Assembly: GCF_009805705.1 (NCBI RefSeq)
Contig: NZ_VSMB01000001.1
Location: 186,001-250,000, forward strand
DNA length: 64,000 nt
Direction of reading: 5' to 3'
Source: Ruania rhizosphaerae
GTDB taxonomy: Bacteria > Actinomycetota > Actinomycetes > Actinomycetales > Beutenbergiaceae
The notes under the pieces were generated by a model. That model saw only the letters and a program-made list of their open reading frames with translations, ran no database searches and had not been told where the DNA came from. Positions 6,417 to 46,770 of this stretch are shown here, one piece after another; the first letter of the stretch is position 1; every line of letters starts with the position of its first letter. Made by a program: the position numbers and the translations under genes.

Positions 6417-7577
6417 ATGCGCAAGTACGGACTCGCGGCACTCGGCACGGCGGGGCTACTCGCCCTCTCAGCCTGTGCCGGAGGAGGAGCCGGCAGCGGA
6501 GAAGACGACGGCGGCGGTGGCGGCGGTGGCGACACCGAGGCGCCCGAAGAGGTCCTGGTCGGGGTCGCCATGCCCACCCAGACGTCAGAGCGGTGGATCG
6601 CCGACGGCGAAGCCGTCGAGGCGGGTCTGACCGACCTCGGATACGACGTCGATCTCCAGTTCGGGAACGACGACATCCCCACCCAGGCGCAGCAGATCGA
6701 TCAGATGATCACCAGCGGGGCAGACCTGCTCGTGATCGCCGCCATCGACGGCACCGCCCTGACCAGTCAGCTCGAGGCCGCGGCCGCTGCGAACATCCCG
6801 GTCGTCTCCTACGACCGGCTGATCCGCGACAGCGAGAACGTCGACTTCTACGTGACCTTCGACAACTACCAGGTGGGCGTCCAGCAAGCGACGTCCCTGC
6901 TCGTCGGGCTGGGCTTGCTGACCGAGGACGGCAGCGAAGGCGAGGCCACCGGCCCGTTCAACATCGAGCTCTTCGCCGGCTCCCTCGACGACAACAACGC
7001 GCACTTCTTCTGGGAAGGTGCGATCGAGACGCTCCAGCCCTACATCGACGACGGCACTCTGACCGTTCCCTCGGGCCAGACAGACATCGAGCAGGCTGCC
7101 ACACTGCGCTGGCAGCAGGAGACCGCACAGCGGCGGATGGAGGACCTGCTGACCTCCACCTACTCCGACGGCACCGAGCTGCACGGCGTCCTGTCCCCCT
7201 ACGACGGCCTCTCGCGGGGCATCATCACGGCCCTGCAGAACGCAGGCATGGGGCCGACCCTCGAGGAGGGACTACCCGTGGTCTCCGGCCAGGACGCCGA
7301 GATCGCCTCCGTGGCGCTGATCGACCAGGGCGTGCAGTTCGCGACCATCTTCAAGGACACACGCAAGCTGGCCGACCAGGCTGTGACGGCCGCCGAGGCC
7401 TACCTCGCGGGTGAGGAGCCGGAGGCCAACGACACCGAGACCTACGACAACGGGGTCCTCGTCGTGCCCTCGTACCTGCTCGAGTCGGACATCGTCTACG
7501 CGGGCAACATCACCTCGCTCCTGGTCGACTCCGGCTACTGGACGGCCGACGAGGTCGCCGCAGGCGTCGCCGAGTAA
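6417..7577 (+). CDS. chvE: sugar-binding lipoprotein of a CUT2 ABC transporter (ChvE/MmsC-like)
   Basis: 386 residues. ATG follows GAAGGAG. The signal peptide ends in lipobox LSAC (Cys20), then a Gly/Asp-rich flexible linker to about residue 45. The mature part is a periplasmic-binding-protein type I fold ([17 protein letters not shown], then [35 protein letters not shown]), close in pattern to ChvE, which binds several monosaccharides for the GguA/GguB or MmsA/MmsB transporter. The two genes that follow encode the matching double ATPase and permease, so the assignment rests on sequence and context. A strong hairpin follows the gene and may raise binding-protein mRNA over the transporter mRNA. 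The ligand is not known; arabinose, galactose, xylose or fucose are typical for this class. Confidence 0.88.
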
Positions 7578-7618: not shown

Positions 7619-7638
7619 CATGCGAGCAGGAGCATCCC

Positions 7639-9180
7639 ATGACTCAACCCATCCTCGAGATGCGGGAGATCACCAAGGCCTTTCCCGGCGTCAAGGCGTT
7701 GCAACAGGTCTCCTTGACCGTCGCGGCCGGAGAGATCCACGCCATCTGCGGTGAGAACGGCGCGGGCAAGTCGACCCTGATGAAGGTTCTCTCCGGTGTC
7801 TACCCCCATGGCAGCTACGACGGCGAGATCGTCCTCGACGGCGAATCAGTCGCCTTCGGCTCGATCAACGACAGCGAGGCCCGTGGCATCGTCATCATCC
7901 ACCAGGAGCTCGCGCTGATCCCCCACCTGAGCGTGGCCGAGAACATCTTCCTCGGCAACGAACGGCGTGGGCCACTCGGCCTGGTGGACTGGAACCGTGC
8001 GAACTCCGAGGCAGCGGAACTTCTCGCGCAGGTCGGTCTGCACGAGAATCCGACCACGCCGATCTCGGCCCTCGGCGTCGGGAAGCAGCAGTTGATCGAG
8101 ATCGCCAAAGCGTTGTCGAAGAACGTGCGGATCCTCATCCTCGACGAACCCACCGCCGCACTCAACGACAATGATTCCGAACACCTGCTGCACCTGCTGC
8201 GCACCCTCCAGGAGCGCGGCATCACCTCGATCATCATCTCCCACAAGCTGAACGAGGTGGAGGAGATCGCCGAACGCACCACGATCATCCGGGACGGTCG
8301 CACGATCGAGACGATCGACATGTCTGAAACCGGCGCCACCCAGGAACGCATCATCCGCGGGATGGTCGGCCGCGACCTCTCCCATCGCTTCCCCGAGCGT
8401 GACCACGCCATCGGTGATGAGGTGTTCCGTGTGGAGAACTGGACAGTCCACCACCCCACCCAGACCGGCCGGATCGTCGTCGACGACGCCAGCCTCAGCG
8501 TCCGGGCCGGAGAGGTGGTCGGTATCGCGGGCCTCATGGGTGCCGGACGCACCGAGCTTGCCATGAGCATCTTCGGCCGCTCGTACGGGCGGGACGTCAG
8601 CGGGCAGGCGTACATGCACGGCAGGCCCGTCTCGACGGCGAGCGTCCCCGAGGCGATCCGGCACGGTATCGCGTATGCGACGGAAGATCGCAAGGTGTAC
8701 GGGCTCAACCTGATCCAGGACGTCCGCAAGAACATCTCTGCCGCCGGCCTGCGCCAGTTGTCCTCCCGAGGGTGGGTGAACGGCAATGAGGAACTCGAGG
8801 TGGCTGAGAAGTACCGCGCGGACCTGAACATCAAGGCGCCCAGCGTGCTCTCCGTCGTCGGGCAGCTCTCCGGCGGGAACCAGCAGAAGGTCGTCCTCAG
8901 CAAATGGATCTACACCGATCCGGATGTGCTGATCCTCGACGAACCCACCCGGGGGATCGACGTCGGCGCCAAGTACGAGATCTACACCATCATCAACCGG
9001 ATGGTCGCAGCGGGGAAGGCGGTCATCGTCATCTCCTCCGAGCTGCCCGAACTGCTGGGCATCTGCGACCGCATCTATACCCTCGCCTTCGGCCGGATCA
9101 CCGGTGAGGTACCGATCGCCGAGGCCACCCAGGAGAACCTCATGCACCTGATGACCACGGAGAAGGAGCTGGTCTCATGA
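7639..9180 (+). CDS. mmsA: CUT2 sugar ABC transporter ATPase with two nucleotide-binding domains (MmsA/GguA)
   Basis: 513 residues from ATG 7639, which follows GAGCAGGAG; a longer upstream frame overlaps the previous gene and hairpin and was rejected. NBD1: Walker [10 protein letters not shown] near residue 40, signature-region [15 protein letters not shown], Walker [15 protein letters not shown]2: degenerate Walker [10 protein letters not shown] near 300, [26 protein letters not shown]. This is the RbsA/XylG/GguA architecture. Energises uptake by the permease encoded next, which overlaps by 4 bp (ATGA). Confidence 0.93.
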
Positions 9181-10355
9181 CCGGGATCGCCAACATCTGG
9201 GAGCTCGCGTCCCGGAACATGCGCCAGAGCGGCATCGTGGTGGCGTTCGTGGCCATCGTCGCGCTGTTCAGCCTACTCAATCCGACGTTCCTCTCCCCCG
9301 GGAACATCACGAACATCGTGTTGCAGTACTCCTACATCCTCATCCTGGCAATCGGGATGGTGATCGTGATCATCGGCGGTCACATCGACCTGTCGGTCGG
9401 GTCGTTGGTGGCACTGACCGGGTCGGTGGCGGCCGTGCTGGTCATCAAAGGTGGACAGCCCTGGTGGGTGGGAGTGATCGCCGCCCTCGTCGTCGGTCTG
9501 CTCGCCGGAGTCTGGCAGGGGTTCTGGGTCGCCTACGTCGGGATTCCCGCTTTCATCGTCACACTCGCCGGGATGCTGCTGTTCCGCGGCTTGACCTGGA
9601 TCGTGCTGGAGAGTATCTCCCTCTCGCCGTTCGGCGGGCCGTACTATCAGATAGCCAACGGGTTCCAGAACGGATTGCTCGGCGGGATGGGATTCGACGT
9701 CTTCACGTTGTTGATCTTCGCGTTCGGCGTCGTCGGATTCGCCGTGCTGCAGTGGCGTTCCCGCCTGGCGAAGCTGCGCTACCAGCAAGCAGTGGAGGCA
9801 CTGCCGTTCTTCGTCGCGAAGATCGTGCTGGTGGCAGCGGTCGTGATGTGGTTCGCCTGGCAGCTGGCGCACAGCCGGGGACTGCCGAACGTACTGATCC
9901 TGCTCGCGATCCTCATCATTGCCTACAGCCTCATCACCCAACGCTCCGTCTTCGGACGGCACGTGTACGCCATCGGTGGCAACCTCCATGCTGCCCAGCT
10001 GTCCGGTGTGAAGGTGAAGAAGGTCAACTTCTGGATCTTCGTCAACATGGGCTTCCTGGCCGCCGTCGCCGGTGTGGTGTACTCAGCCCGGATGAACGGT
10101 GCTCAACCCTCGGCGGGAGAGATGTTCGAACTCGACGCGATCGCCGCATGCTTCATCGGCGGCGCAGCGGTCACCGGCGGTGTCGGCCGCGTCACGGGCG
10201 CGATCGTCGGTGGCCTGATCATGGCCGTGATGAGCAACGGGATGCAGCTGATGGGCGTCGACCAATCGGTACAGCAGGTGGTCAAGGGCCTCGTACTGCT
10301 GTTGGCGGTCGCCTTCGACGTCTACAACAAGAAGCGGGCAAGCACGGCTCGCTGA
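9177..10355 (+). CDS. mmsB: CUT2 sugar ABC transporter permease (MmsB/GguB)
   Basis: 392 residues, about 10 membrane segments. BPD_transp_2-type features: [31 protein letters not shown] near residue 45-75 and [20 protein letters not shown] near 325. The length (about 390, longer than RbsC) and the polar loop near residues 195-215 fit the GguB/MmsB subfamily. It is translationally coupled to mmsA and is followed by a strong terminator hairpin. Confidence 0.93.
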
Positions 10356-10449: not shown

Positions 10450-11622
10450 GTGAGCCGATGGCCGGCGGGATCGCAATCGGCGCTGCGCGAGGCCAACACT
10501 GCCCTCATCGTGGACGCCGTCAAGCAGTTCGGCGGGCTGACCCAGGTCGAGCTCGCCGATGCCACGGGCCTGTCCGCGGCTACGGTCTCGACCATCGTCA
10601 AGGAGCTCACCCAGACCGGGGTGGTCGATACCCGGCCCACCGCCCGCAGTGGGCGGCGCGCGACCATGGTGACGCTCGCCCGCAGCACCGGGATCGCCGC
10701 GGGGATCGTCGTCGGTCACCGCGGGCTGCAGGTTCTGCTCGGCGACTTCGCCCACGAGGTGCTGGCAGAACGCACCATGCCGCTGCCGCCGGACCACCCG
10801 TTGGACACCGTGCTCGACCGGATCGCGCTCCTCGTGGTCGACATGCTCGAGATTCTCGGGACCGACCTCACCGAACTGGCCGGCCTGGGGGTCGGCCTCC
10901 CCGCACCGGTGGAGGCCTCCACCGGGATGATCTCGGTACGCGGGATCATGCGCGGATGGGACGGTGAGCATGTGGGTAACGTCCTCGCCAAGCGGCTCGG
11001 CCGGCCCGTGCACGTGGAGAACGCTGCGAACCTCGGCGCGCTCGCCGAGGCCACGCTCGGGGCAGCCCGGCCCTACGCCGACAGTCTCTACGTGAGATCC
11101 TCGTTCACTGCGGGTGCGGGCATCATGCTCGGCGGACGCCTGCACCGCGGATATGCCGGTACCGCCGGGGAGATCGGGCACGTGCAGGTCGATCCACTCG
11201 GTCAGATCTGCCGCTGCGGTCGCCGGGGGTGCCTGGACACCGTCGTCGGAGCCGATGCCCTCCTCGCCTCGCTCCAGGTCAGCCACGGGTCGCTGACATT
11301 GCGTGACGTGATCGCCCGGGCGATCGACGGCGATCCGGGGTGTGCACGGGTCGTTGCGGACGCTGGGCGGGCCGTCGGCCTGGTGGTCTCGGGCGTGTGC
11401 CAGACCGTCAACCCACAGATCGTCACCGTCGGCGGGGAGCTGAGCGAGTGCGGAGAGGTCTTCCTGGCCCCGCTGCGTGAGACCCTGCGCGACCACACCC
11501 TGCCCAACCAGGTGGCTCCGATGGAAGTCCAGCCCGCCCTCCTCGGCACCGAGGCCGAGGTGATGGGCGCGCTGGTCCACGCGTTGCAGTCCACCGATGT
11601 GCGAATGCAGAGAGAACGCTGA
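10450..11622 (+). CDS. ROK-family transcriptional repressor
   Basis: 390 residues from GTG 10450. The N-terminal winged HTH (about residues 8-65: ALIVDAVKQFGGLTQVELAD, GLSAATVSTIVKELTQTGVV) is followed by a ROK sugar-kinase-like domain with the zinc motif CRCGRRGCLDT near residue 255 and GEIGH before it. NagC/XylR-type repressors bind DNA until a sugar ligand is present. It sits behind the ChvE-type transporter and overlaps the start of an ABC ATPase gene by 1 bp (TGATG), so it probably controls these genes in response to the transported sugar. Leaderless start is likely. Confidence 0.9.
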   Translation: MSRWPAGSQSALREANTALIVDAVKQFGGLTQVELADATGLSAATVSTIVKELTQTGVVDTRPTARSGRRATMVTLARSTGIAAGIVVGHRGLQVLLGDFAHEVLAERTMPLPPDHPLDTVLDRIALLVVDMLEILGTDLTELAGLGVGLPAPVEASTGMISVRGIMRGWDGEHVGNVLAKRLGRPVHVENAANLGALAEATLGAARPYADSLYVRSSFTAGAGIMLGGRLHRGYAGTAGEIGHVQVDPLGQICRCGRRGCLDTVVGADALLASLQVSHGSLTLRDVIARAIDGDPGCARVVADAGRAVGLVVSGVCQTVNPQIVTVGGELSECGEVFLAPLRETLRDHTLPNQVAPMEVQPALLGTEAEVMGALVHALQSTDVRMQRER

Positions 11623-12401
11623 TGACATCTCCGATCGATACCAGCGACACGACCACCGGGCCGGTGCTCTCCATGCACGGCATCACCAAACGATTCGGCG
11701 CCGTCGAGGCGCTCGTGGATGTGACCTTCGAGGTACGCCCACGGGAGGTGGTTGGACTGATCGGCGACAACGCCGCCGGCAAGTCCACGCTCGCGAAGAT
11801 CATCGCCGGTGCGTTGCAGCCAACTGCCGGCCTGATCGAGATCGACGGTGCCGGCGTCACCATCGGCTCCCCCTCGGCCGCGCATCGGTTAGGGATCGCG
11901 ACGGTGTTCCAAGATCTCGCCCTGTGCGAGAACCTGGACGTGAGTGCGAATCTCTTCCTGGGCCGCGAGCTCAACGCCACCGGATTCCTGCATGAGGGCC
12001 GGATGGCACAGCTCACCCGCTCGGTGCTGCGGGACCTTCGCGCACAGATCCCCTCGATCCACACCCCCTTACACCAGCTCTCCGGCGGTCAACGGCAAGC
12101 GGTGGCGATCGCCCGGACCCTCATCGGCGAGCCCCGCCTCGTCGTCCTCGATGAGCCGACGGCGTCCCTGTCGGTCGCGCAGACGGCCGAAGTCCTGACG
12201 CTCATCGAACGCCTGCGTGATCTCGGGCTCGGCGTGGTCTTCATCAGTCACAACCTCACCGACATCGGGGCCACCTGCGACCGCATCGAGGTGCTCCGGC
12301 ACGGCCGGAACAACGGCAGCTTCGCGGGGTCCTCGGTGCGGCAGGCCGACCTCATTGCCGCGATCACCGGTGCCCCGGGGTACGGGACCGCGCACAGCTG
12401 A
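11622..12401 (+). CDS. orphan single-domain CUT2-type ABC ATPase
   Basis: 259 residues with one complete nucleotide-binding domain: Walker A GDNAAGKST near residue 50, Q-loop region ATVFQDLALCENLDV, signature LSGGQRQ near 150, Walker B RLVVLDEPTASL, H-loop VVFISHN. The CUT2 hallmark LGRE and the C-terminal RHGRNNGSF pattern resemble the single-domain sugar ATPases such as FrcA. It is co-translated with the ROK repressor, but no second permease or binding protein accompanies it, and the neighbouring transporter already has a double ATPase. It may serve a permease elsewhere or have a regulatory role with the ROK protein (inference). Confidence 0.85.
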   Translation: MTSPIDTSDTTTGPVLSMHGITKRFGAVEALVDVTFEVRPREVVGLIGDNAAGKSTLAKIIAGALQPTAGLIEIDGAGVTIGSPSAAHRLGIATVFQDLALCENLDVSANLFLGRELNATGFLHEGRMAQLTRSVLRDLRAQIPSIHTPLHQLSGGQRQAVAIARTLIGEPRLVVLDEPTASLSVAQTAEVLTLIERLRDLGLGVVFISHNLTDIGATCDRIEVLRHGRNNGSFAGSSVRQADLIAAITGAPGYGTAHS

Positions 12402-12564: not shown

Positions 12565-13884
12565 TCAGTCGCCGAGGCCCCGGATCGTCTCGAACAGGTC
12601 GACGTCCCCGACCTGGCCGCCCTTGAGCAGCAACTCGAGCCCGTCCACCGCCGGGTCAGCCGCATGCGCGCGCAGTAGCACCACGTTCCCGGTCGGGTTC
12701 GCGGCGATCGAGAGTGACTCCACTCCCAGGAGTGTGGTCACCCGGCTGGAGGTGTCACCCCCGCACACGATCGCCCGCCCGACGCCGGCCCTCACCGCAG
12801 CCTCGACCATCCCCGCCGCAGCGCTCGCCAAGGCGGGCAGCACCTCCTGCGCGGCCAATCCAGAGGTATCGGCGTCGTCGGAGCTCAGCGCGACGCTCTG
12901 CCCGGCCGCGAGCGCCGCGAGTACCCGCTCCCGGAGGCTGTGCTCACTCGCGCTGTGCTCAGCCGTGCTGTGTTCCGCCGTGCTGTGCTCACCACTGCCA
13001 GATCTGCCCACGACCAGCGGTGCGGTCATCCACCCCGCCCGGGCAGCGGCGTCGATCTGCCGTCGCGTCTGCGCCGACCGGCTCCCCGAGACCGCCAGCA
13101 CCGGCCCCCGGGCGGGTGTGGCCATCGGTACCGGGCCCGCCTGCCCCGGCTCGGCCGCAGCCAGTGCGTGGGAGAGCCCTCCGGAGCCGATCGCGAAGCC
13201 CCCCAGATCCAGCAGGGCCTGGCCGAGCAGGCGCAGGTGCTGCTCCCCGAGCGCATCCAGCACCAGACCCGCTACATCGGACTCCCTGATCTGCTGCGTC
13301 ACATCCGCCACGGAGCTGTAGGCCGTGAACGGCAGCGACCCGATACCGAGTTCTGTCTGCCGCCCCAGATGAACGGCCAGGTCGGACTCATCCATCGGCG
13401 TCACCGGATGGCTGGACATCGTCGGCTGCCGGTCAAGCCGATAGACGGTCTCGCCCTCCCGGGCGAAGTGGTGCCCGAACGCGGTGTACCGCCCGAAGTC
13501 GGGCTGGGCGAAGAGCATCGGCACCGGCTGCTCGCCCCGCGCTGTCTGCTGGCCCACCACCGCACGCCCGATCTCCAGCGCCCGGCCCAGGCTCCCCACG
13601 TGCGGCGAAGAATCCGCCGTCGAGCAGGCCTTGTACTGCAGCACCTGCGGGTCCAGGCTCGCCAGCGCCGTCAGCACCGGCCGCACCTCGGCCTCGAGCT
13701 GCTCGGTGGATAGTGACCTGGCAATCCCGGCGACCCCGACGGCGTCGCACCCCTGGGCGGCCGCCCGCAAGGTCTCCCTGTCCGGCAGCCGGGTGAACAA
13801 CCGCCCGGTCCACCCGCGCCGGGCCACCTGCAGCAGCACGTCAACGCTGCCGGTGAAGTCGTCCCCGTAAAACCCCAGCCGCAT
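12565..13884 (-). CDS. DUF1537 four-carbon acid sugar kinase (OiaK/OtnK-like)
   Basis: 439 residues from ATG 13884, 1 nt after the RuBisCO-like stop. The N-terminal substrate domain starts with the family motif FYGDDFTGS (residues 5-13). The C-terminal nucleotide domain has CGGDTSSRVTTLLG, PTGNVVLLRA and the closing LLKGGQVGDVDLFE. Family members phosphorylate sugar acids such as threonate, erythronate, 3-oxo-tetronate and 3-oxo-isoapionate with ATP. The pairing with a RuBisCO-like protein matches OiaK (3-oxo-isoapionate kinase) with OiaX, which argues for a branched 3-oxo acid substrate; specificity itself is inference. Odd feature: four 15-bp tandem units (12939-12998) encode a repeated AEHST-like stretch between the two domains. 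The gene ends 34 bp from repeat copy 2. Confidence 0.85.
   Translation of the reverse strand: MRLGFYGDDFTGSVDVLLQVARRGWTGRLFTRLPDRETLRAAAQGCDAVGVAGIARSLSTEQLEAEVRPVLTALASLDPQVLQYKACSTADSSPHVGSLGRALEIGRAVVGQQTARGEQPVPMLFAQPDFGRYTAFGHHFAREGETVYRLDRQPTMSSHPVTPMDESDLAVHLGRQTELGIGSLPFTAYSSVADVTQQIRESDVAGLVLDALGEQHLRLLGQALLDLGGFAIGSGGLSHALAAAEPGQAGPVPMATPARGPVLAVSGSRSAQTRRQIDAAARAGWMTAPLVVGRSGSGEHSTAEHSTAEHSASEHSLRERVLAALAAGQSVALSSDDADTSGLAAQEVLPALASAAAGMVEAAVRAGVGRAIVCGGDTSSRVTTLLGVESLSIAANPTGNVVLLRAHAADPAVDGLELLLKGGQVGDVDLFETIRGLGD
12939..12998 (-). repeat. 15-bp tandem repeat inside the DUF1537 kinase gene
   Basis: Four imperfect 15-bp units (12939, 12954, 12969, 12984; plus-strand unit like TGTGCTCAGCCGTGC) encode EHS-rich repeats (EHSTA, EHSTA, EHSAS, EHS). 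They fall in the linker between substrate and nucleotide domains, keep the frame, and could vary in number between strains. Confidence 0.75.
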
Positions 13885-13885
13885 G

Positions 13886-15142
13886 CTAGACACGCGCCGG
13901 ACCGAACCGCTCGACCGCCCGCCGCAGGGCTCCGGAGCTACGCAAGGCATCCTCTACGGTCTCACCTGCTGCCGCCGAGGCCCACGCCTGGCGCATGCTG
14001 TCCACACCGCCTCGGACGCCGTCAGGGTGGCCATGAATCCCGCCACCGGCGAGCACGAGCAGGTCCGTGCTGCCCACGGCTTCATAGGTGGCGTGCGCGA
14101 GCCCGCCCCACTGCCCGGAGGAGAGCACAGGAATCGCTGGGGTGGTGCTCAGCAGGGGCTCCTGGACGGCGGAGATCGCCGCCAGCACCTGGGCGTCTGA
14201 CTCGTAGAACTTGTTGGAGATGCCGTTGGTGTGCAGGTGGTCCACACCGCTCATGCGGGCCAGCTTCTGCCACGCCCGGAACGCGATGCCGACCTGCTCG
14301 GAGCGACTGATGGCTCCGAACCCGGCGCGATGGCCGTGGATGGGCAGCTGTGAGCGGCGGCGGATGTAGTCCAGCCCGGCGAGGCCGATGTTCGCGACGC
14401 ACACCATGATGCAGGTGCCGCCGGCCTCGAGGACCAGGTCGTGGTTGCGTTCGAGCTGGTCGATGTCGTCGGTGATGTTGAAGGCGTACATCGGCTTCAC
14501 CCCGGTGCGCTCGGCGTGACGGTTCAGTACCGGCATCACGGCCTTGATGCGCTCGGCCAGCGGCGCGTGCGGGCCGTTGCCCTGCAGCTCGTCGTCCTTG
14601 ATGAAGTCGATCCCGCCCTCGGCGAGGTCACCCACCAGCTCCGCGAGCTCGTCGGGCGTGAGGCCGATACTGGGCTTGACGATGGTCCCGAGCATCGCCC
14701 CCTCGGGGCGCGACATCAGCCGCCGCGTGCCCGCCACACCGAACTGCGGTCCGGGATAGCGGTCAGCGAAGGCATCCGGCAGGTCGATGTCGATCAGCTT
14801 GATCGCCGCGAGCTCCTTGATCTCGAACAAGTTCCCGGCCACGGCTGCCATCAGGTTCGGCAGCGAGGGTCCGAAGTTGCTCAGCGGGAACCGGATCTTC
14901 AGCCGGGCCCGCCGCCGTTCGTCGGTGTCCCCGACCGTCCCGGGCAGGGGCGAGGCACCGGTGAGGGGCAGCTCGTCCAGGCTCTCCACCTGCGCGGCAA
15001 ACTGGGCGCGCACCGAGTCCGATTCACGTTCGACGCGCACGAAGGTGCCGGTGGACTGCTCACCGGCGAGCACTTCGGCGGCCTGTTCCAGCGGCAGGGA
15101 CGTCTCGACGTGGTACGTGGCCACGACATGGTCGGCTCCCAT
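13886..15142 (-). CDS. RuBisCO-like protein (type IV large-subunit homologue), probable 3-oxo acid phosphate decarboxylase (OiaX-like)
   Basis: 418 residues from ATG 15142, which overlaps the GH127 stop by 1 bp (TGATG); GTG at 15148 is an alternative start. RuBisCO large-chain fold: GTIVKPSIGLTPDEL near residue 150, carbamate/metal motif FIKDDE with Lys182-Asp184-Glu185, HRAGFGAI, HLHTNGISNKF (loop-6 region) and VLSSGQWGG. The second Lys of the RuBisCO KPK motif is Ser here (KPS), so CO2-fixing carboxylase activity is not expected. Known RuBisCO-like enzymes of this size include OiaX, which decarboxylates 3-oxo-isoapionate 4-phosphate made by the DUF1537 kinase OiaK. The next gene is exactly such a kinase. 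The unusual partner is the upstream GH127 glycosidase in the same operon. Confidence 0.85.
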   Translation of the reverse strand: MGADHVVATYHVETSLPLEQAAEVLAGEQSTGTFVRVERESDSVRAQFAAQVESLDELPLTGASPLPGTVGDTDERRRARLKIRFPLSNFGPSLPNLMAAVAGNLFEIKELAAIKLIDIDLPDAFADRYPGPQFGVAGTRRLMSRPEGAMLGTIVKPSIGLTPDELAELVGDLAEGGIDFIKDDELQGNGPHAPLAERIKAVMPVLNRHAERTGVKPMYAFNITDDIDQLERNHDLVLEAGGTCIMVCVANIGLAGLDYIRRRSQLPIHGHRAGFGAISRSEQVGIAFRAWQKLARMSGVDHLHTNGISNKFYESDAQVLAAISAVQEPLLSTTPAIPVLSSGQWGGLAHATYEAVGSTDLLVLAGGGIHGHPDGVRGGVDSMRQAWASAAAGETVEDALRSSGALRRAVERFGPARV

Positions 15143-17127
15143 CACCACACCACCGGCAGCCAGACCGACATCTCCGACGGCCCGCGATTGCTCCAGGCGT
15201 AGTAGGGCACCAGCCGCACACTCGCCCGCCGCAACGGGGTCTCGTCGACGTCGCCGTAGAGCCCGTCGGTGGCGGGCGGCAGGATCGCCACCTCCGTCTC
15301 CAGCGCGGTCACCTGCTCTGCTCCGATGGTCATCTGCACCGGGTGGGGCTGGGCGCCGCGCGGCAACGCGATCTGCTCGAGCCGGACGCCGTCGGGAAGC
15401 TCATGGCTCTCCAGGCAGTAGACGACCGGGCCGCGCTGCACGGCCACCTGGTTCGTGATCTCCTCCGCCAGCCGGTGCCCGCGCACGATCCGGGCCGGCA
15501 TCGGCAGGTCGAGCGTGATCTCGTCCCCGGCCTGCCACTCCCGCTCGATGCGCGTGTAGCTGGAGGGTCCGCTCACCTCGAGCGGGGTCCCGTTGACGGC
15601 GGCCCTCGCCCCGCGCGCCCAGCCCGGGATGCGTAGGTGGACCGGCAAGGCACCAGCGGCCTCGGTGACGGTGAAGGTGATGGCGCCGTCCCAGGGATAC
15701 TGGGAGTTCTCGGTCAGCACCACCCGAGCCGCGTCGCGCTCGCCCCGGATCTCCGATCCTCCGTATTGGTGCACGTACAGGCCGTCCGGGCCGACCGAGG
15801 CGATGCGTTCGTGCATCTCGGAGAGGGTGCGGGCGATGTTCGGGGGGCAGCAGAAGCAGCTGAGGTAGGGCTGGCGCAGTCGTTCGTCCGAGGGCGGCGG
15901 CTCCGGCGTCGGACGCAGCGCGGTGTCCCCGGCGCGGCGCAGCGGGAAGGGCAGGTCGCGGACCTGGCGCAGCGGGTTGGTGTAGAAGTAGCTGGCTCCG
16001 TCGAGGCCGATGCTGGCGAGCAGGGCGTTGTAGGCGATGGTCTCGATCACGTCGGCGTAGCGCGCCTCGGGGCGCAGCGCCAGCATCCGCTCGGACCAGA
16101 AGATCATGCCGATGTGCGCGCACGACTCGTTGTGCGCCGTCGTGTTGGGCAGTTGATAGGCCCGGCCGTAGGCCTGGTGGACCCGGCTGATCTCCTTCTG
16201 CCAGGGGTAGCCGTCCGGGGAGGCGCCGTCGTAGAGGGCGCCGCAGCCGCCGGTCAGGTAGAGCTTGGTGTCGACCACGTCGTTCCACAGCCGTTCCAGC
16301 ACCGTCTGCAGTTCGCCGTCCCCGGTCTCGGCGACGAGGTCGCTCAGGCCCGCATAGAGGTAGTTCGCCCGGACCGCGTGGCCGGTGACGACTGTCTGCT
16401 CGCGGACGGGGATGCGGTCCTGATTGTCGTCGCCGCCTTCGTCGAACTCGTCGCGCACCCGCAGGAACGCCTCGGCGAGGCGCAGGTAACGGGGATTCGA
16501 GGTAGCGCGGTAGAGGTCGATGACGGCCATGTAGTGCGAGGGGCAGATCGCCGACTTGGCCAGTTCGGTGGGCTTGTCGGTGGCCAGCATCTCCAGGAAG
16601 CCCGCGGCCTTCTCGGCGACGTCCAGGAGGGTGGTCGAGCCGGTGACGGCGTGGTGGCGGACGGCCACGGTGATGAGGTGGCCGAGGTTGTAGGTCTCGA
16701 AGTTGAAGCGGTCGGCGAGGGCCTGGACCTGCTGCTGCCGGCGCTCGGCGATGGCGGTCGGGGTGTGCAGGTACCCGTCTTCGCGCTGCACCGAGGCGAT
16801 GAGGCGGCCGAGCTCCTCGATGCGGGTGGCGAGCTCGTCGTCCCACGCGAGTTCGAGTTGCACGACGGCGGACTCGAGCCACTTGTAGGTGTCACCGTCC
16901 ATGAACGGCGGGCCCTGGTGCTCCCCCTCCTCCAGCCCCGCAGCGATCTGGAAGTTCCGCACGCCGGGGCTGACAGCGGGATCGCGCAGCATGGCCTCCA
17001 TGCTGGGGACAGTGACCTCTCGGGTCCGACGCGCGACACCGGACCAGAAGCCACGTCGCCAGCGCGCACCGGCTGCCCCCAGAGGAGTCCAGGGCGCATG
17101 CGCACGGGTGGGGGATGTGGCCGTCAT
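15142..17127 (-). CDS. GH127-family glycosidase (DUF1680; beta-L-arabinofuranosidase-type)
   Basis: 661 residues from ATG 17127 (AAAGGAC upstream). No signal peptide, so it acts on imported oligosaccharides. The (alpha/alpha)6 barrel carries the GH127 zinc-thiolate site: Glu334 and Cys336 in NESCAHIG, and Cys426-Cys427 in SCFCCPPN, where the first Cys of the pair corresponds to the nucleophile in characterised enzymes. C-terminal beta domains follow (LRIPGWA, then GPVVYCLE). Most characterised GH127 enzymes release beta-L-arabinofuranose; a Bacteroides member is known to release aceric acid from RG-II. It is first gene of a three-gene operon with a RuBisCO-like protein and sugar-acid kinase, which hints that the released sugar may be a branched or acidic pentose (inference). 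Its promoter has the shared TGCAT box. Confidence 0.87.
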   Translation of the reverse strand: MTATSPTRAHAPWTPLGAAGARWRRGFWSGVARRTREVTVPSMEAMLRDPAVSPGVRNFQIAAGLEEGEHQGPPFMDGDTYKWLESAVVQLELAWDDELATRIEELGRLIASVQREDGYLHTPTAIAERRQQQVQALADRFNFETYNLGHLITVAVRHHAVTGSTTLLDVAEKAAGFLEMLATDKPTELAKSAICPSHYMAVIDLYRATSNPRYLRLAEAFLRVRDEFDEGGDDNQDRIPVREQTVVTGHAVRANYLYAGLSDLVAETGDGELQTVLERLWNDVVDTKLYLTGGCGALYDGASPDGYPWQKEISRVHQAYGRAYQLPNTTAHNESCAHIGMIFWSERMLALRPEARYADVIETIAYNALLASIGLDGASYFYTNPLRQVRDLPFPLRRAGDTALRPTPEPPPSDERLRQPYLSCFCCPPNIARTLSEMHERIASVGPDGLYVHQYGGSEIRGERDAARVVLTENSQYPWDGAITFTVTEAAGALPVHLRIPGWARGARAAVNGTPLEVSGPSSYTRIEREWQAGDEITLDLPMPARIVRGHRLAEEITNQVAVQRGPVVYCLESHELPDGVRLEQIALPRGAQPHPVQMTIGAEQVTALETEVAILPPATDGLYGDVDETPLRRASVRLVPYYAWSNRGPSEMSVWLPVVW

Positions 17128-17166
17128 TGGCTGTCCTTTCGCGTCATCACTGGATTGCGACTCTGC

Positions 17167-17217
17167 CGACAGGCTAGCCTGAGGGTGCAACTTCTCGCAA
17201 TCGTGAATCATTATGCA
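17167..17217 (-). promoter_or_regulatory. regulatory box and promoter of the GH127 operon (box 1)
   Basis: On the minus strand, TGCATAATGATTCA (17217-17204) is followed after 3 bp by a -35-like TTGCGA, an 18-bp spacer containing GTTGCACCCTCAG, and the -10-like TAGCCT. The box sits in the middle of the divergent region, so it can also influence the Asp/Glu-racemase-like gene. Closely similar arrangements occur at 46878-46923 and, reversed, at 33067-33118. Confidence 0.65.
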
Positions 17218-17270
17218 TGGTAAAACGGTTGCCCTGGCTTTCTCACCGACTCAAAGGAGAAGATCGGACC

Positions 17271-17969
17271 ATGACCTCCACTCCGCACGCACCGGCCGTC
17301 GCATCGACACCCACGCCCGCCACCCGAGTCGCCTTCCTGCACACCGGCGCCGTCGTCATCCCGCCCGTCATGGAACTGGTCGGCGAGCAGCTGCCCGGCC
17401 TGAGCACAGTCAACTACCTCGACGACCGGATCGTCGCCGACCTCGCCGATCCAGCCCGCCAGGACTCCGTGCCCGAACGCCTCGCCGACCTCGCCGCCGC
17501 CGCCAAGTCTGCCGGGGCGGACGTGCTGATGTTCACGTGCTCCTCGATCTCCCACCTGGCGACATCGACGGCGGAGCAGGCGGGGATCCCGGTGTTGCGC
17601 ATCGATGAGGCGATGGCGGATGAGGCCGTAGCCGGCGGCGGCCGGGTGACCGTGCTCGCGACCCTCCCGACGACGCTCAACCCGACCCTCGCGCTGCTGC
17701 GCGAGCGTGCCGGGATCGCCGGCACCGAGCCGGAACTGACCAGCGAGGTCATCCCGGGGGCGTTCGAGGCCGTCGCGGGCGGGGATCGCGCCACCCACGA
17801 CCAGCTGGTGGCGGAAGCCATCGAGCGTCACGCGCCGGAGAGTGACGTGGTGGTGCTCGCCCAGGCCTCGATGGCCTCGGCAGCCGAGGCGGCGCAGGTC
17901 ACGGTACCGGTGCTGACGAGCCTGCGGCCGGGGATCTCGCGCCTCGCCGAGCGGGTGCAGGCGGGCTAG
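17271..17969 (+). CDS. Asp/Glu racemase-superfamily enzyme with a single active-site cysteine
   Basis: 232 residues from ATG 17271; AAAGGAGA lies 11 nt upstream. Racemase-fold pattern: AFLHTGAVVIPPVMEL at the start, FTCSSISH with Cys90, PVLRIDEAMADEA, VTVLATLPTTLNPT, VVVLAQASMASAAEA. Classical two-base racemases have a second Cys in the last segment; here that position is Ala199 or Ser200. Members with one cysteine include the arylmalonate decarboxylase type and isomerases, so racemisation is unlikely. It is divergent from GH127 and shares its regulatory box, so it probably works in the same pathway, perhaps as an isomerase, decarboxylase or lyase on a sugar-acid intermediate (inference). Confidence 0.7.
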   Translation: MTSTPHAPAVASTPTPATRVAFLHTGAVVIPPVMELVGEQLPGLSTVNYLDDRIVADLADPARQDSVPERLADLAAAAKSAGADVLMFTCSSISHLATSTAEQAGIPVLRIDEAMADEAVAGGGRVTVLATLPTTLNPTLALLRERAGIAGTEPELTSEVIPGAFEAVAGGDRATHDQLVAEAIERHAPESDVVVLAQASMASAAEAAQVTVPVLTSLRPGISRLAERVQAG

Positions 17970-18150: not shown

Positions 18151-18882
18151 TCACGCGCACTTCTGCAGGTACCCCAGACTGGTAGCGATGCCCTCGAAGA
18201 CGTCGCCGTCGTAGTCGTCGAACTCCACCACGCGGACCGCCTCCGGAGCTGCGGCCAGGATCGCCTCGACCGGGGCCTGACCGGCACCCGCGGGCAACTG
18301 CGCCTTGTTGTCACGCGTGAGCGGGCCGTCCTTGACATGAATGTGCGTGACCCGCGACCCGAGCCGCTCCAACAGCGCCGCAGCGGAGACGCCACCCACC
18401 TCGGCCCAGTACGTGTCGACCTCGAGAATCACCCGCTCATCGAGCGCAGCAGCGAAAATCTCCAGCGCGGGAGTGCCCTCGATCTCAGCAAGCTCCCACC
18501 AGTGGTTGTGATAGCCGATCCTCAAACCATAGTCCGCTCCCCGCACGGCAAGCTCATTGAGACGAGCAGCCAAGCCCTCCACGGACTCCCGGGACTCCCA
18601 CTTGTCACCGCCGAGCCCTGGCTCGATCACAGTGGTGATACCGACGGCTTCGGCCGCTTCGAAAGTCGCAACAGGATCGCTCGCCTCCAACAGACTTGCA
18701 TGGCCCGAGGAGATGTTTAATCCTGACACCCGCCGCGCCTCGCGGTACTCGTGAACCCTATCCACAAATCCGTATGCCTCTGCCGAGCGATACCCAATGT
18801 CGGCAACTCGGCGGAGCGTGGCGGCGATATCGATGGCCATTTCATTGCGCACAGAGTAGAGCTGTACAGAGATGCTATTCAT
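18151..18882 (-). CDS. sugar phosphate isomerase/epimerase (xylose-isomerase-like TIM barrel)
   Basis: 243 residues from ATG 18882 (AAGGAC upstream). AP-endonuclease-2/xylose-isomerase-like barrel: SVQLYSVRNEM at the start, RRVADIGYRSAEAYG, and the expected metal-binding segments TTVIEPGLGGD, IGYHNHWWEL, ILEVDTYWAEVGG and VTHIHVKDGPL. Family members isomerise, epimerise or dehydrate keto-sugars and inositols. It is last gene of the esterase/CUT1 operon, 90 bp after the aldo/keto reductase; together they may oxidise and isomerise a released monosaccharide. Substrate not identifiable. Confidence 0.8.
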   Translation of the reverse strand: MNSISVQLYSVRNEMAIDIAATLRRVADIGYRSAEAYGFVDRVHEYREARRVSGLNISSGHASLLEASDPVATFEAAEAVGITTVIEPGLGGDKWESRESVEGLAARLNELAVRGADYGLRIGYHNHWWELAEIEGTPALEIFAAALDERVILEVDTYWAEVGGVSAAALLERLGSRVTHIHVKDGPLTRDNKAQLPAGAGQAPVEAILAAAPEAVRVVEFDDYDGDVFEGIATSLGYLQKCA

Positions 18883-18972: not shown

Positions 18973-19968
18973 TCACCGTCGCTCGGGAGGGTCCTGCCAC
19001 GTGCTGTCGTCCAACTCGACCTGCTCTAATTCTTCCCAGATCCGGTCCTCGATCACGACGTCGGCCAACTGCACCGTCTTTTCATGCTCTTCGACGCCGA
19101 GCATTCCGACCACCGTGGAGGTGACTCGCGGGTCACGAAGTGACCACTGCAGCGACGCCGCAGCGATCGGAACATCCGCCTCTTCAAGTAGCTGTCCAAT
19201 GATGTCGACCGCCGCCAGCAATGCTGGCGCAGCATCACCGTATGCGTAGCGCCTCCGCCGGCTGGGCCACGCAGCGAGCAGACCACCGCCGTAGGGCGCA
19301 GCGTTGTACACGCCGACACCCGCCGCTGCTGCCTCGTCGAGCAACAGATCCGCGGATCGATCCACCAGCGTGTAGCGATTGTGCGTCATCACCGCCTCGA
19401 AGTGGCCCGTGCCCAGGTACCGGCGGAGCAGACCTGCGGGCCCGCCGGAGATGCCGAGGTGGCCGATCGAGCCGGCATCACGCATCTCCAGGAGCGCGGC
19501 GAGCGGACCCTGAGGTTGCGTGATATCGCCCCAGCTCGCGTTCTCAGGGTCGTGGAGAAAGCACATGGGTATTCGGTCGAGCCCGAGGCGCTCACAACTC
19601 TCGCGGACGGATTCTTGCATGCGCTCGTACGAAAACGTCCCACTCACCCAGTCGCGATCTGCCTTGGTCTGTACCAGCACAGTTTCTGTGTCGGGATGGG
19701 TTCGCAGCGCGGCGCCAATGCGCCGCTCGCTCTCGCCGAAGCCGTAGTTGTTGGATGTGTCCAGTACACGCACCCCGCCGCCGGAGAGAATCAAGCTGGC
19801 TAACGCGGCGGTCTGCTCGGCGCTGGGGCCCGTGCCATCAGCGCGATCCTGCCAACCAGCAGTACCGGCTGTCACAGCGGTGACCTTCAGGCCCGTCGAG
19901 CCCAGCTCTCTGAGTGCGAACGCCCTCGGGGTCGCAGGACCAGGCATGACTTCTCGTTCGGCATTCAC
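18973..19968 (-). CDS. aldo/keto reductase, aldose 1-dehydrogenase-like
   Basis: 331 residues from GTG 19968, 9 bp after the permease stop, with a GGTGA upstream; ATG at 19947 is a second candidate. AKR tetrad visible: Asp and Tyr in VLDTSNNYGFGES, Lys in VLVQTKAD, His in CFLHDPE. C-terminal SLQWSLRDPRVTSTVVGMLG is the NADP-binding segment. The subfamily resembles D-threo-aldose (L-fucose/galactose) 1-dehydrogenases. In an uptake operon it probably oxidises the imported aldose. Confidence 0.8.
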   Translation of the reverse strand: MNAEREVMPGPATPRAFALRELGSTGLKVTAVTAGTAGWQDRADGTGPSAEQTAALASLILSGGGVRVLDTSNNYGFGESERRIGAALRTHPDTETVLVQTKADRDWVSGTFSYERMQESVRESCERLGLDRIPMCFLHDPENASWGDITQPQGPLAALLEMRDAGSIGHLGISGGPAGLLRRYLGTGHFEAVMTHNRYTLVDRSADLLLDEAAAAGVGVYNAAPYGGGLLAAWPSRRRRYAYGDAAPALLAAVDIIGQLLEEADVPIAAASLQWSLRDPRVTSTVVGMLGVEEHEKTVQLADVVIEDRIWEELEQVELDDSTWQDPPERR

Positions 19969-37968: not shown

Positions 37969-39222
37969 TCAGTGCTCCCAGAGGGTGGCCAGCGGCAACG
38001 CCCAGAGCCGGTCACCGAAGGGCACGGCACGTGTTCCCGTATACAGGACCACCCCGGCGACGAACCGCTCACCCACCTTGTCGCGGAGAAGTTCCAGACC
38101 ACGGAAATCACCCGCTCCGACCGTCGCAGCAGACTTCACCTCGACGCCGACCACCTCGCGGCGACGATCTTCGAGCACGATGTCGACCTCACGACCGTGG
38201 TTGTCACGGTAGTGGGACAGCGAGTAGGACTTCTGCGACCAAGCACGCTGTTTCACCAGCTCACCGACCACGAAGCCCTCGACGAATCCACCGGTCAACG
38301 TCGAGGACACCTCGCGCTCGAGGCCGTCGACGTCGACTCCGGCGAGATGGGCCGCAAGACCAGTGTCGCTCAGATACACCTTCGGCGTCCGCACCGCGCG
38401 AGTTGCTCGGTTGTTCGACCAGCCCGGGACTACGCGGATCAGGTAGACCGATTGCATCGCCCGGAGGTAGGCGGGCACGGAACGTTCCGGTATGTCGACC
38501 TCTCGCGCGGCTCGCGCTGTGACGAACTCGCTGCCGTTGCGGGCGGCGAGAACGTCGAGCAGCGGTCCGAGCCGATCCAGATGCGTGATCCCGGAGACAT
38601 CGGTGGTGTCCTTCGAGAGCACACGATCGGCGTAGTTCTCCAACCAGCGGCCGCGCGCACGGGCGGACGCCTCGCGGAGTTCCGGGAATGCGGGGGCAGC
38701 CGCGATCTCCAGGTAGTCGCGGCGGGTGTACGCGGGTCGATCTGCGGGCACCCCGGCCGGTAGCCTCCAGGCATACGCAGCGAAGTCCTCGACCCGCTCT
38801 GCCACCTCCCCCCGACTGAGGCCCTCGAGCGGAATGGTCTGCGCCCGGCCTGCCAGCGATTCCTGCGCTCCTCGCAGTGACAGCAGATCAGCCGAACCTG
38901 TGACGATGAAACGGCCTGGTCGTCGGTCCTGATCGACCGCTGCCTTCAATGACGTGAGCAGCGCAGGGACTCGCTGGATCTCGTCGATGGCGAGCAGACC
39001 GTCCGGATACTGCATCGCGAACCCGTCTGGGTCCCGCTCAGCGGCTGCGCGGTCCACGGCGAGATCGAGGTTGATCGTCCGCGCATCTCTGTCCGAGATG
39101 AGTTGCTGCATCAAGGTGCTCTTGCCGACCTGCCGGGCTCCGCTGATCACCGTGACCGGAGTGTCAGCAAGCGTCTCTTCCGCGAGATCACTCACGTTCC
39201 GATGGACGAGATGGGGCGCCAT
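37969..39222 (-). CDS. DUF4143-type AAA ATPase
   Basis: 417 residues from ATG 39222, which has a TAGCCT -10 at 39235-39230, 7 nt upstream; ATG 39228 is an alternative. AAA core: Walker A SGARQVGKSTL near residue 30, Walker B LLAIDEIQRVP near 80, sensor region FIVTGSADLLSL. C-terminal DUF4143 region with VYLSDTGLAAHLAG and a PD-(D/E)xK-like segment REVDIVLEDRRREVVGVEVKSA. Widespread family of unknown role, often accessory and sometimes in defence contexts. It stands alone, interrupts the glycosidase block, lies between two copies of an intergenic repeat and has 22-bp tandem repeats just upstream, all signs of a mobile or recently gained gene. Confidence 0.85.
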   Translation of the reverse strand: MAPHLVHRNVSDLAEETLADTPVTVISGARQVGKSTLMQQLISDRDARTINLDLAVDRAAAERDPDGFAMQYPDGLLAIDEIQRVPALLTSLKAAVDQDRRPGRFIVTGSADLLSLRGAQESLAGRAQTIPLEGLSRGEVAERVEDFAAYAWRLPAGVPADRPAYTRRDYLEIAAAPAFPELREASARARGRWLENYADRVLSKDTTDVSGITHLDRLGPLLDVLAARNGSEFVTARAAREVDIPERSVPAYLRAMQSVYLIRVVPGWSNNRATRAVRTPKVYLSDTGLAAHLAGVDVDGLEREVSSTLTGGFVEGFVVGELVKQRAWSQKSYSLSHYRDNHGREVDIVLEDRRREVVGVEVKSAATVGAGDFRGLELLRDKVGERFVAGVVLYTGTRAVPFGDRLWALPLATLWEH

Positions 39223-39229
39223 AGGCATC

Positions 39230-41986: not shown

Positions 41987-41998
41987 GGGAACCACCTT

Positions 41999-42014
41999 CG
42001 TTTCGAAACGTTTC
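41999..42014. promoter_or_regulatory. overlapping LacI-type palindromes in the GH78/DUF4038 divergent region
   Basis: CGTTTCGAAACG (41999-42010) and GAAACGTTTC (42005-42014) are perfect overlapping palindromes, giving three alternating GTTTC/GAAAC half-sites 13 bp upstream of GH78. A further CGTTTCAC is at 42063-42070. A LacI-family repressor is the likely binder, but this site differs from the TTTACCGGTAAA at 28695. Confidence 0.65.
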
Positions 42015-42138
42015 ACTCTCATCGTAGTAGACGCTAGATTGGTGGTCTGACGCAACTGAGCACGTTTCACATGCCCTGGCACGCAGCGCCCGGGCAAGCG
42101 AGAGCCCGTCGATGTGCGGGACGACGAGGAGGTCGGGT

Positions 42139-46700: not shown

Positions 46701-46770
46701 TCCGGAGCGGTATCGAGTGGCACGCACCGCGACCTCGTTCCGGATGGGGCTCGGGGTGGACTCCGCCTGA
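43738..46770 (+). CDS. GH2 LacZ-type beta-galactosidase
   Basis: 1010 residues from ATG 43738 (AAGGAGAGAACAGC upstream), close to E. coli LacZ in length. Five-domain GH2 layout: jelly-roll (45-215, GNVLCVRVHRWSAGTYLEDQ-type segment split near 190), Ig-like domain, barrel with RFHGVNRHEHDP, acid/base Glu423 in WSMANESWTG and nucleophile Glu501 in LVEYAHAMGNGPGS. The C-terminal Bgal_small_N domain (about 725-1010) has DVHRAPTENDRG and YPVPQENGNH. Intracellular; cleaves beta-galactosides or related beta-linked residues from imported fragments. Likely same operon as the DUF4038 gene. Confidence 0.9.
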   Translation: MSTARYWESYAPGEGRRRPRAEARTDARTLTLNGTWRFRLCPTAEGTGAGFLAEDFDDSGWDEIRVPSHWVLQDVTPLAGGEPRSLRGTAEGPLYTNTAFPIPIDPPRVPTENPTGDYRLVFDAPADWGASILRLRGADSCAKVWLNGVEIGWSTGSRLPVEYDAPVRPGRNVLCVRVHRWSAGTYLEDQDMWWLPGIFRDVDVIERPAAAIEDHFVHADYDHTTGIGTLRVDAEVTDGSPARVQVPELGIDVPAGETVTAAVTPWSADRPRLYRGTLATAEETIELAIGFRRVEIADGVLLANGAPLRFHGVNRHEHDPATGRTQDRATMIRDIEIMKRANIDAVRTSHYPPHPDFLSLCDEYGLWVVEECDLETHGFIYAGWENNPPDDPAWFGALQDRIERMVEPDKNHPSVVIWSMANESWTGAGFDLLEQWIRERDPSRPVLYERDPSYRNSDFYSCMYPELDALEAIGRREEPRPDNVTDAEDARRRTLPFLLVEYAHAMGNGPGSLQDYQHILESSDRFCGGFVWEWIDHGFDARTADGTPFTLHGGAVDFRPTGGRFCLDGLVFADRTPSPGLTQLAKAYEPVRIAIGDAITVSNRRHATDTADLQWRWELLVDGRQIAEGGLEVPAVPAGGTVEVALPGAMPELPGDGEPHLSVEARLAYNTAWAVAGHVVSWGQHQLRSGGSRVQTAPAGTGSGAGNTVAPEAARTTGARGEGDIRAHGTPSGIVLGPATFEGETGRLVRLGDLELEGPWLDVHRAPTENDRGQGGRNDLSAAWSAVGIDRMLHRTLDVQADGDRVRVNGRVAAATHPHALEYQLDWSLHAGLLWLDAQVDFAGPWDSTPLKGLEIVIPRLGLLFRLPGGYGRAAWFGRGPGDSYADSFAGTRVGRWQAAIDDLQVHYPVPQENGNHVHTRELTVSGPGVPDLRAVGDPLFDFTTRRWTSKDLQQARFPHELRDSGHVWLNLDYGQLGLGSASVGPALPERYRVARTATSFRMGLGVDSA

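Follow-up and report, generated by a model that had tools for sequence, protein, structure and literature searches.

D-Apionate is reportedly degraded by a pathway, attributed to Carter et al. in 2018, that contains the DUF1537 kinase OiaK and the RuBisCO-like protein (RLP) OiaX. In the apionate route the tertiary carboxyl group is built by ApnO; L-aceric acid (3-C-carboxy-5-deoxy-L-xylose) already bears one. The 3-oxo-tetronate pathway employs OtnI as isomerase, OtnK as kinase and OtnC as decarboxylase. Aceric acid is a rare, branched pectin sugar of plants, found in rhamnogalacturonan II (RG-II), with a known hydrolase (PMC10850190). Here, we describe a locus of Ruania rhizosphaerae in which the genes for a GH127 glycosidase, an RLP, a DUF1537 kinase and an Asp/Glu-racemase-fold protein lie together. 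It is contained in a window of 64,000 nucleotides (RefSeq assembly GCF_009805705.1, contig NZ_VSMB01000001.1, positions 186,001–250,000 of the forward strand), in whose numbering all positions are given. We put at roughly 55% the probability that this operon frees L-aceric acid from RG-II oligosaccharides and degrades it.

Layout and conservation of the gene set

The gene set is a real, conserved four-gene module. Three of its genes lie on the reverse strand and encode the GH127 glycosidase (15142–17127; 661 residues, aceric acid hydrolase-like, with three Pfam GH127 domains), the RLP (13886–15142; a candidate OiaX-type decarboxylase with both RuBisCO_large domains) and the DUF1537 acid-sugar kinase (12565–13884; Pfam SBD_N 144.3 bits and NBD_C 65 bits, both over the Pfam gathering scores). 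The GH127 stop codon and the RLP ATG share 1 bp (TGATG) and 1 nt separates the RLP stop codon from the kinase ATG (TAG-c-ATG), which bears out the three coupled genes described in the original prediction from the DNA alone. The racemase-like gene and the conserved RG-II-type neighbours were missing from that account. The gene for the Asp/Glu-racemase-fold protein, a candidate aldose-ketose isomerase, lies on the forward strand (17271–17969, with an alternative start at 17217) and begins ∼140 bp from the GH127 start (∼90 bp for the alternative). The divergent promoter region between the two (17128–17270) is similar in L095–L098, the siblings of the window locus (82–96% over a 600-base query that surrounds it); L-numbers denote the genome loci compared and G-numbers the sampled genomes of the order.

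Conservation was assessed in the best 80 of at least 544 confirmed RLP relatives in genome contigs, with up to 10 kb on each side and with GH127 scored as present at 400 bits or more. GH127 is found in 35 of the 80 loci and follows RLP identity closely: where the RLP shares 70% identity or more with that of the window, all 31 loci have it, against four of 14 at 55–70% and none of 35 below 55%. Since every locus in the first group holds GH127, the adjacency is not a matter of chance. The ten loci without GH127 at 55–70% are six from Kribbella together with L051, L054, L055 and L056; L051 and L054 run out no more than 1 kb from the RLP, and in G402, the genome from which L051 comes, a different contig carries a racemase-like gene beside such a GH127. 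The kinase accompanies GH127 in 34 of 35 loci, the exception (L034) ending within the RLP, and the racemase-like gene is present in 34 of 35 versus five of 45 other loci, the sole GH127 locus without it (L029) starting inside GH127. The GH127 loci span Microbacteriaceae, Jiangellaceae, Promicromonosporaceae, Propionibacteriaceae and Ruaniaceae.

A census of 396 genomes of the order used orthologue thresholds of at least 60% identity for the RLP, 45% for GH127 and 55% for the racemase-like protein, and its whole-genome searches scored the first three to seven candidates per genome. Orthologues of the RLP, GH127 and the racemase-like protein each occur in 13 genomes, and these are the identical 13 (nominal Fisher p of 1e-24, not to be taken at face value). 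Adjacency of GH127, the RLP and the kinase is thus not rare in relatives; rarity would have counted against the original prediction. The 55 GH127 matches listed comprise 13 of the operon type and 42 paralogues at 35–41% identity. In G009 the parts are split over two contigs, each ending within the kinase gene. None of the three orthologues is present in G016, G010 or G012, whose congeners hold them; at 37%, a GH127 paralogue occurs in G010 and a racemase-like relative in G012.

Two side observations concern the wider set. Four of six Kribbella genomes have a 60–61% racemase-like protein elsewhere in the genome. Five Bacillota loci (L058, L062, L068, L071 and L084) combine RLP and DUF1537 genes with a class II aldolase gene and show no ApnO, racemase-like or GH127 gene in the stretches examined; judging by gene content, they may represent a further acid-sugar route.

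Kinship of the glycosidase, RLP and kinase

The GH127 tree combined 28 operon proteins (those of 27 loci and the window, part of the available set) with three solved chains and 14 of the 42 paralogues. A branch with 100/100 support has the operon proteins and the chain of PDB entry 5mqo on one side, apart from the β-L-arabinofuranosidases; the tool warns that several rows, including the PDB chains, have long branches. We take 5mqo to be the aceric acid hydrolase BT1003, an identification supported by the score of its chain against the NCBIfam aceric acid hydrolase model (NF049879; 1083.8 bits, over the cut-off of 950). This grouping sustains the link between GH127 and aceric acid that had been proposed for the operon. 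Moreover, 28 positions are common to at least 27 of the 28 operon proteins and 5mqo and are shared by none of the 16 other GH127s; the equivalent residue counts for the two arabinofuranosidase chains are 0 and 1. Against the same model the window protein scores 747.1 bits, under the cut-off; this value falls between that of the 5mqo chain and those of the arabinofuranosidase chain 4qjy and one actinobacterial paralogue (522 and 481 bits), and the orthologues in L030 and L063 reach 773.5 and 619.3 bits. Glu334, Cys336, Cys426 and Cys427, the zinc-thiolate residues already read as intact, occur not only in the window protein but also in 5mqo, in all 16 other GH127s and in at least 27 of the 28 operon proteins. 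No signal peptide was seen at the N-terminus on inspection by eye.

The RLP is the sole match to PF00016 in the genome. Its best-scoring model is NCBIfam OiaX (NF042437; 424.1 bits, under the cut-off of 700), and it scores 202 bits (cut-off 409) and 158.9 bits (TIGR03332, cut-off 513.6) against two MtnW-type enolase models, so that it does not belong to methionine salvage. The comparison envisaged in the original prediction was with OiaX, OiaT and MtnW: kinship to OiaX was found through the OiaX profile alone and MtnW was excluded, OiaT lying outside the comparison. For the kinase, NCBIfam OiaK (NF042436) is the best-scoring named family at 255.8 bits, also under a cut-off of 700, and a 3-oxo-tetronate kinase model gives 132.9 bits (cut-off 350). 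The likeness of the pair to OiaK and OiaX thus stands in rank, with both scores under their cut-offs. At L092, a locus with the D-apionate lactonase ApnL (825 bits, cut-off 750), the RLP scores 415.5 bits against OiaX and the kinase 448.3 bits against OiaK, again under the cut-off; since the L092 RLP also stays this low, the OiaX cut-off is not discriminating for these proteins. Sequence comparison thus shows which genes make up the set, how they are conserved, to which subfamily GH127 belongs and that the pair is kin to OiaX and OiaK.

Genes are labelled ApnO here (L092:8977–9801 and its relatives) on the basis of PF16896 and KARI_N and of their place beside ApnL and the RLP/kinase pair; none of them matched an ApnO model. 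The window RLP keeps KDDE at residues 182–185 and has KPS instead of KPK at residues 156–158, as had been noted. Since all 23 ApnO-type RLPs used for the tree also have KPS, the serine marks the subfamily and not the operon, and gives no sign of lost function.

The RLP tree was built by a quick method from 94 RLPs, of which 46 carry the GH127 label and 23 the ApnO label. L053 fits both (ApnO-like 40%, 8 kb away) and was counted as GH127. The outgroup L014 sits on a branch of ten changes per column, which makes the root meaningless. The two labels fall in different parts of the tree: one set of 37 consists entirely of GH127 rows (support 99), a second of 13 contains nine GH127 rows and no ApnO (support 99), and the ApnO rows lie inside another set of 37 without GH127 (support 87, not starred). 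The window RLP is placed in an actinobacterial group. Eleven positions split GH127-linked from ApnO-linked RLPs; at ten of these the Kribbella RLPs side with the GH127-linked ones. The RLP of L037, from a record titled Planococcus sp. APC 4015, falls among Microbacterium; the record may be misnamed or contaminated.

A proposed route for aceric acid

We infer the substrate, steps 2 to 5 and the order of the steps; aceric acid is the substrate we favor, with somewhat better than even confidence. In the first step, GH127 would cleave the aceric acid glycoside. The freed aldose, OHC-CHOH-C(OH)(COO-)-CHOH-CH3, would then be isomerized to HOCH2-CO-C(OH)(COO-)-CHOH-CH3, the racemase-fold protein being the most likely catalyst, and the DUF1537 kinase would phosphorylate the CH2OH of this 2-ketose. 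In the fourth step the RLP would decarboxylate the branched β-keto acid in the manner of OiaX, giving CO2 and a 5-deoxypentulose 1-phosphate, which a class II aldolase encoded elsewhere (the candidate being RhaD of the rhamnose operon) would finally split into dihydroxyacetone phosphate (DHAP) and acetaldehyde. That the kinase and RLP act in series on a branched 3-oxo acid is quite probable. The 2-ketose of aceric acid equals 3-oxo-isoapionate, the OiaK substrate, with CHOH-CH3 in place of CH2OH. A branched-sugar route through oxidation, phosphorylation and decarboxylation had been predicted; the latter two steps are retained, given that OiaK and OiaX are the best models, whereas oxidation is unnecessary because aldose-ketose isomerization of aceric acid already yields an OiaK-like substrate. 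In PMC6302742, RLPs are described as decarboxylating 3-oxo-isoapionate-4-phosphate, and cleavage to DHAP and acetaldehyde is proposed there for 5-deoxyribulose-1-phosphate.

The predicted Asp/Glu-racemase fold of the fourth protein is well supported, by PF01177 (68.9 bits, threshold 31), by an AlphaFold2 model with a pLDDT of 95.7 and by a PDB fold search whose best matches are Asp/Glu racemases and arylmalonate decarboxylase; the isomerase reaction is not. Cys90, Ser91, Ala197, Gln198, Ser200 and Met201 are invariant across 30 aligned racemase-like sequences. Cys90 is the sole invariant cysteine among them, the second site reading AQ-SM in its invariant letters, so that the protein does not show the pair of catalytic cysteines used by Asp/Glu racemases. 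The isomerase role follows from elimination and from the kinase-neighbor pattern in distant loci, and we assign it tentatively, at a little less than even odds.

The distant racemase-like loci (L131–L133 and L167–L183) were examined in 1.5 kb flanks by tblastn with three kinases. A DUF1537 kinase adjoins the gene in four of the 20 (L131, L132 and L169 by tblastn, L167 by Pfam). In L153, which extends L131, the next two genes pass the models for 3-oxo-tetronate kinase (409.9 bits, cut-off 350) and 3-oxo-tetronate 4-phosphate decarboxylase (254.1 bits, cut-off 250), and the RLP and two TIM-barrel queries gave no match within 19 kb. The racemase-like gene of L153 therefore sits where an isomerase feeding the kinase would be expected. 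In L153 (9353–11953), and likewise in L169, a racemase-like gene stands in series with genes for a DUF1537 kinase and a class II aldolase-type protein, an arrangement that possibly represents a tetronate pathway with a racemase-fold isomerase.

A different assignment of this single step is compatible with the aceric acid route: the racemase-fold protein could epimerize the decarboxylated product at C3 or itself act as a decarboxylase, with a general isomerase such as RhaI acting on the aldose. The fold neighbors, racemases and arylmalonate decarboxylase among them, would suit such roles, and RhaI is at hand: in the window genome RhaI and RhaD pass their cut-offs (a rhamnulokinase-like gene reaches 442 of 528), and L-rhamnose isomerase is found with the bifunctional rhamnulose-1-phosphate aldolase within 10 kb of the RLP in five of 35 GH127 loci and none of 45 others. 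The L153 order, with the racemase-like gene before the kinase and decarboxylase, points instead to a step preceding phosphorylation. Arylmalonate decarboxylase uses a C-terminal cysteine in catalysis, unlike the racemase-like set, in which the invariant cysteine is N-terminal. We regard this assignment as doubtful.

Two further candidates for the early steps were set aside. A TIM barrel (18151–18882), considered as the isomerase, has a match in none of the 80 loci within 10 kb at 60 bits. An aldo-keto reductase (18973–19968), considered as an aldose dehydrogenase, has relatives at 36–42% identity in six of 35 GH127 loci and is not part of the core.

Neighboring genes, alternative readings and described systems

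The forward strand before the kinase gene encodes a monosaccharide ATP-binding cassette (ABC) transporter, composed of the sugar-binding protein ChvE (6417–7577; NCBIfam 506.1 bits, cut-off 460), the ATPase GguA (7633–9180; 853 bits, cut-off 810) and the permease GguB (9177–10355; 519.4 bits, cut-off 450). It is followed by a ROK-family regulator (10450–11622; Pfam ROK 167.4 bits, MarR-type helix-turn-helix) and a single ABC ATPase (11622–12401; Pfam ABC_tran 102.5 bits) that is convergent with the kinase gene. GguA, GguB, the regulator and the single ATPase also stand beside the operon in siblings L095–L097; in L098, GguA was not seen beside it. Farther away lie a GH78 rhamnosidase on the reverse strand (39404–42097; Pfam Bac_rhamnosid6H 417.4 bits) and a GH2 β-galactosidase of the LacZ type on the forward strand (43738–46770; Pfam Glyco_hydro_2_C 286.3 bits).

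Both glycosidase families accompany the GH127 loci within 10 kb. GH78 occurs in 23 of 35 GH127 loci, in six of 45 others (all Kribbella) and in none of 24 ApnO loci, and GH2 β-galactosidase in 21 of 35, none of 45 and none of 24, respectively. Within the same distance, the ABC permease p1 is found in 29 of 35 GH127 loci versus two of 45 others, a SorC-type regulator in 21 versus one, and a GH140-like protein in three versus seven. The stem of RG-II chain B runs galactose, aceric acid, rhamnose and apiose; this order, taken with the GH78 and GH2 neighbors, implies that the glycosidases could strip the chain residue by residue, and these neighbors fit an RG-II chain holding aceric acid.

GH78 lies ∼21 kb from the racemase-like gene in the window, within ∼5 kb in L096 and directly beyond it in L097, where a GH140-like gene and GH2 lie beyond that gene as well. 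The intervening block in the window (18151–38763) contains the TIM barrel, the aldo-keto reductase, a CUT1 transporter, a carboxylesterase, GH2, regulators and GH95, and on gene order may be an insertion or rearrangement relative to L097 and L096. The Kribbella loci L046–L050 and L090 have clusters of RLP, DUF1537, GH78 and GH140-like genes, with a pectinesterase/GDSL protein in L046 and, in L090, a weakly GH127M-like protein (21.2 bits, under the cut-off); these clusters look like RG-II loci.

Several observations weigh against the aceric acid reading. To the scores of GH127, the RLP and the kinase below their model cut-offs is added the absence of a dedicated aldolase from the operon. The racemase-like match of G114, one of the 13 census genomes, has an internal stop, and the p values of the census are overstated because these genomes come from two families and are treated as independent. 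Six Kribbella genomes have an RLP and kinase, and in two of them no close racemase-like protein occurs. Some racemase-like relatives stand in RLP clusters without GH127, one of them with ApnO (L076), and 16 of the 20 distant racemase-like loci show no kinase in the flanks searched. The genomes of L131/L153 and L132 carry an RLP elsewhere (L055 and L050). To our knowledge, no aldose-ketose isomerase with a racemase fold has been described.

The remaining contrary observations concern ApnO-like genes. ApnO was not found beside the operon in the window, and the earlier statement that no apiose dehydrogenase or isomerase lies near it holds for the subset of window genes scanned; an apionate-type cluster (ApnL-like, ApnO-like and TIM-barrel genes) nevertheless lies ∼63 kb from the RLP in the same genome. 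In a search of 38 genomes (31 with GH127, representing all but four of the 35 GH127 loci, six of Kribbella and one of Leucobacter), 30 of the GH127 genomes, and not one of the seven others, had an ApnO-like gene 67–88% identical to that of the window genome. It lies 8–21 kb from the RLP in 15 of the 30 and 47 kb to 5 Mb away under the same contig number in four more, distances in the remainder not being judgeable from contig numbers. Across the order the RLP and ApnO-like genes are also associated (7 of 13 versus 34 of 383 genomes; Fisher p of 8e-5). A strict mutual exclusion of GH127 and ApnO, which is true within 10 kb (both labels in one of 80 loci), rested on the span searched and a distant ApnO query; it fails genome-wide and was abandoned.

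The distant cluster (L119:3238–11137, at ∼257–265 kb of contig C11) contains a SorC-type regulator, a short-chain dehydrogenase/reductase, a LacI regulator (by eye) and the ApnL-like, ApnO-like and TIM-barrel genes, and is possibly an RLP-free apiose/apionate route. Two AAA_14/DUF4143 ATPase genes (37969–39228 and L119:6321–7562) lie one near each sugar cluster.

These associations, together with OiaX and OiaK as the best-scoring models and the derivation of aceric acid and apiose from the same RG-II side chain, could mean that the RLP and kinase are an ordinary OiaX/OiaK pair for apionate, GH127 merely unblocking apiose while free aceric acid goes unused or is used elsewhere. The gene beside ApnO bears on this. 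A TIM-barrel gene, which we take to encode an OiaC-type decarboxylase and for which no OiaC model matched, adjoins the ApnO-like gene in 28 of 30 loci of the GH127 genomes and in 28 of 30 of the order census (two sets that may overlap), so that these bacteria may degrade apionate without an RLP; the RLP and kinase would then be dispensable for that purpose. A close ApnO-like gene (at least 58% identity) occurs in 41 of the 396 genomes and 34 of these lack the RLP orthologue, while six of the 13 RLP genomes lack such a gene (G018 among them has a match at 35%). With the near-absence of loci bearing both labels within 10 kb, these counts make an apionate-only function unlikely.

The operon could also serve another branched or carboxylated sugar freed by GH127, or handle 3-oxo acids derived from apiose as well as from aceric acid through a shared kinase and RLP. 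A single small group distinguishes the two proposed 3-oxo acids, most of the GH127 genomes examined have ApnO-like genes, and L076 unites racemase-like, RLP, DUF1537 and ApnO genes in one locus. The 28 residues common solely to the operon GH127s and the aceric acid hydrolase chain speak against this, as does the separability of the module from ApnO in the census; we give this possibility about the same small weight as the preceding one. That GH127 is an ordinary β-L-arabinofuranosidase with incidental adjacency, as the predominance of arabinofuranosidases among characterized GH127/GH146 enzymes in the tree of PMC10850190 might suggest, is highly improbable in view of the tree, the residue test and the co-occurrence in the same 13 genomes.

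A catabolic route for aceric acid was not found in the literature searched, which is weak evidence, most subscription journals, including those with the key papers of 2017 and 2018, lying outside its scope. If the aceric acid reading is true, the RuBisCO superfamily gains a new substrate, the decarboxylation of a 2-carboxy-3-keto sugar phosphate by an RLP mirrors RuBisCO carboxylation in reverse, and the racemase fold might gain a new reaction. A fuller claim, which we advance with considerable reserve, is that the locus represents the first complete pathway for aceric acid, in which a racemase-fold protein is the isomerase, the kinase and RLP remove the carboxyl group free of redox chemistry and RG-II glycosidases peel the chain in order.

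Among described systems, the D-apionate pair OiaK/OiaX comes closest to the kinase and RLP of the window, combining a DUF1537 kinase with an RLP that decarboxylates a phosphorylated branched 3-oxo acid. The window differs in having GH127 and a racemase-fold gene instead of ApnO, an RLP whose actinobacterial group is separate from the RLPs linked to ApnO, and RG-II glycosidases as neighbors. OtnI–OtnK–OtnC likewise places an isomerase, a DUF1537 kinase and a decarboxylase in series; in the proposed route an RLP replaces the class II aldolase-type decarboxylase, a racemase fold replaces that of OtnI and the substrate is branched. MtnW shares the RuBisCO fold with the window RLP and differs in its gene context and in the sub-cut-off scores of both MtnW-type models. 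The aceric acid hydrolase BT1003, as presented in PMC10850190, belongs to the same GH127 clade as the window glycosidase and has the same zinc site and 28 diagnostic residues; the two are 45% identical, the window protein falls under the equivalog cut-off and its gene has catabolic neighbors. On balance, we therefore consider it the likelier interpretation that this module is devoted to aceric acid and puts a known kinase/RLP pair to a new use.

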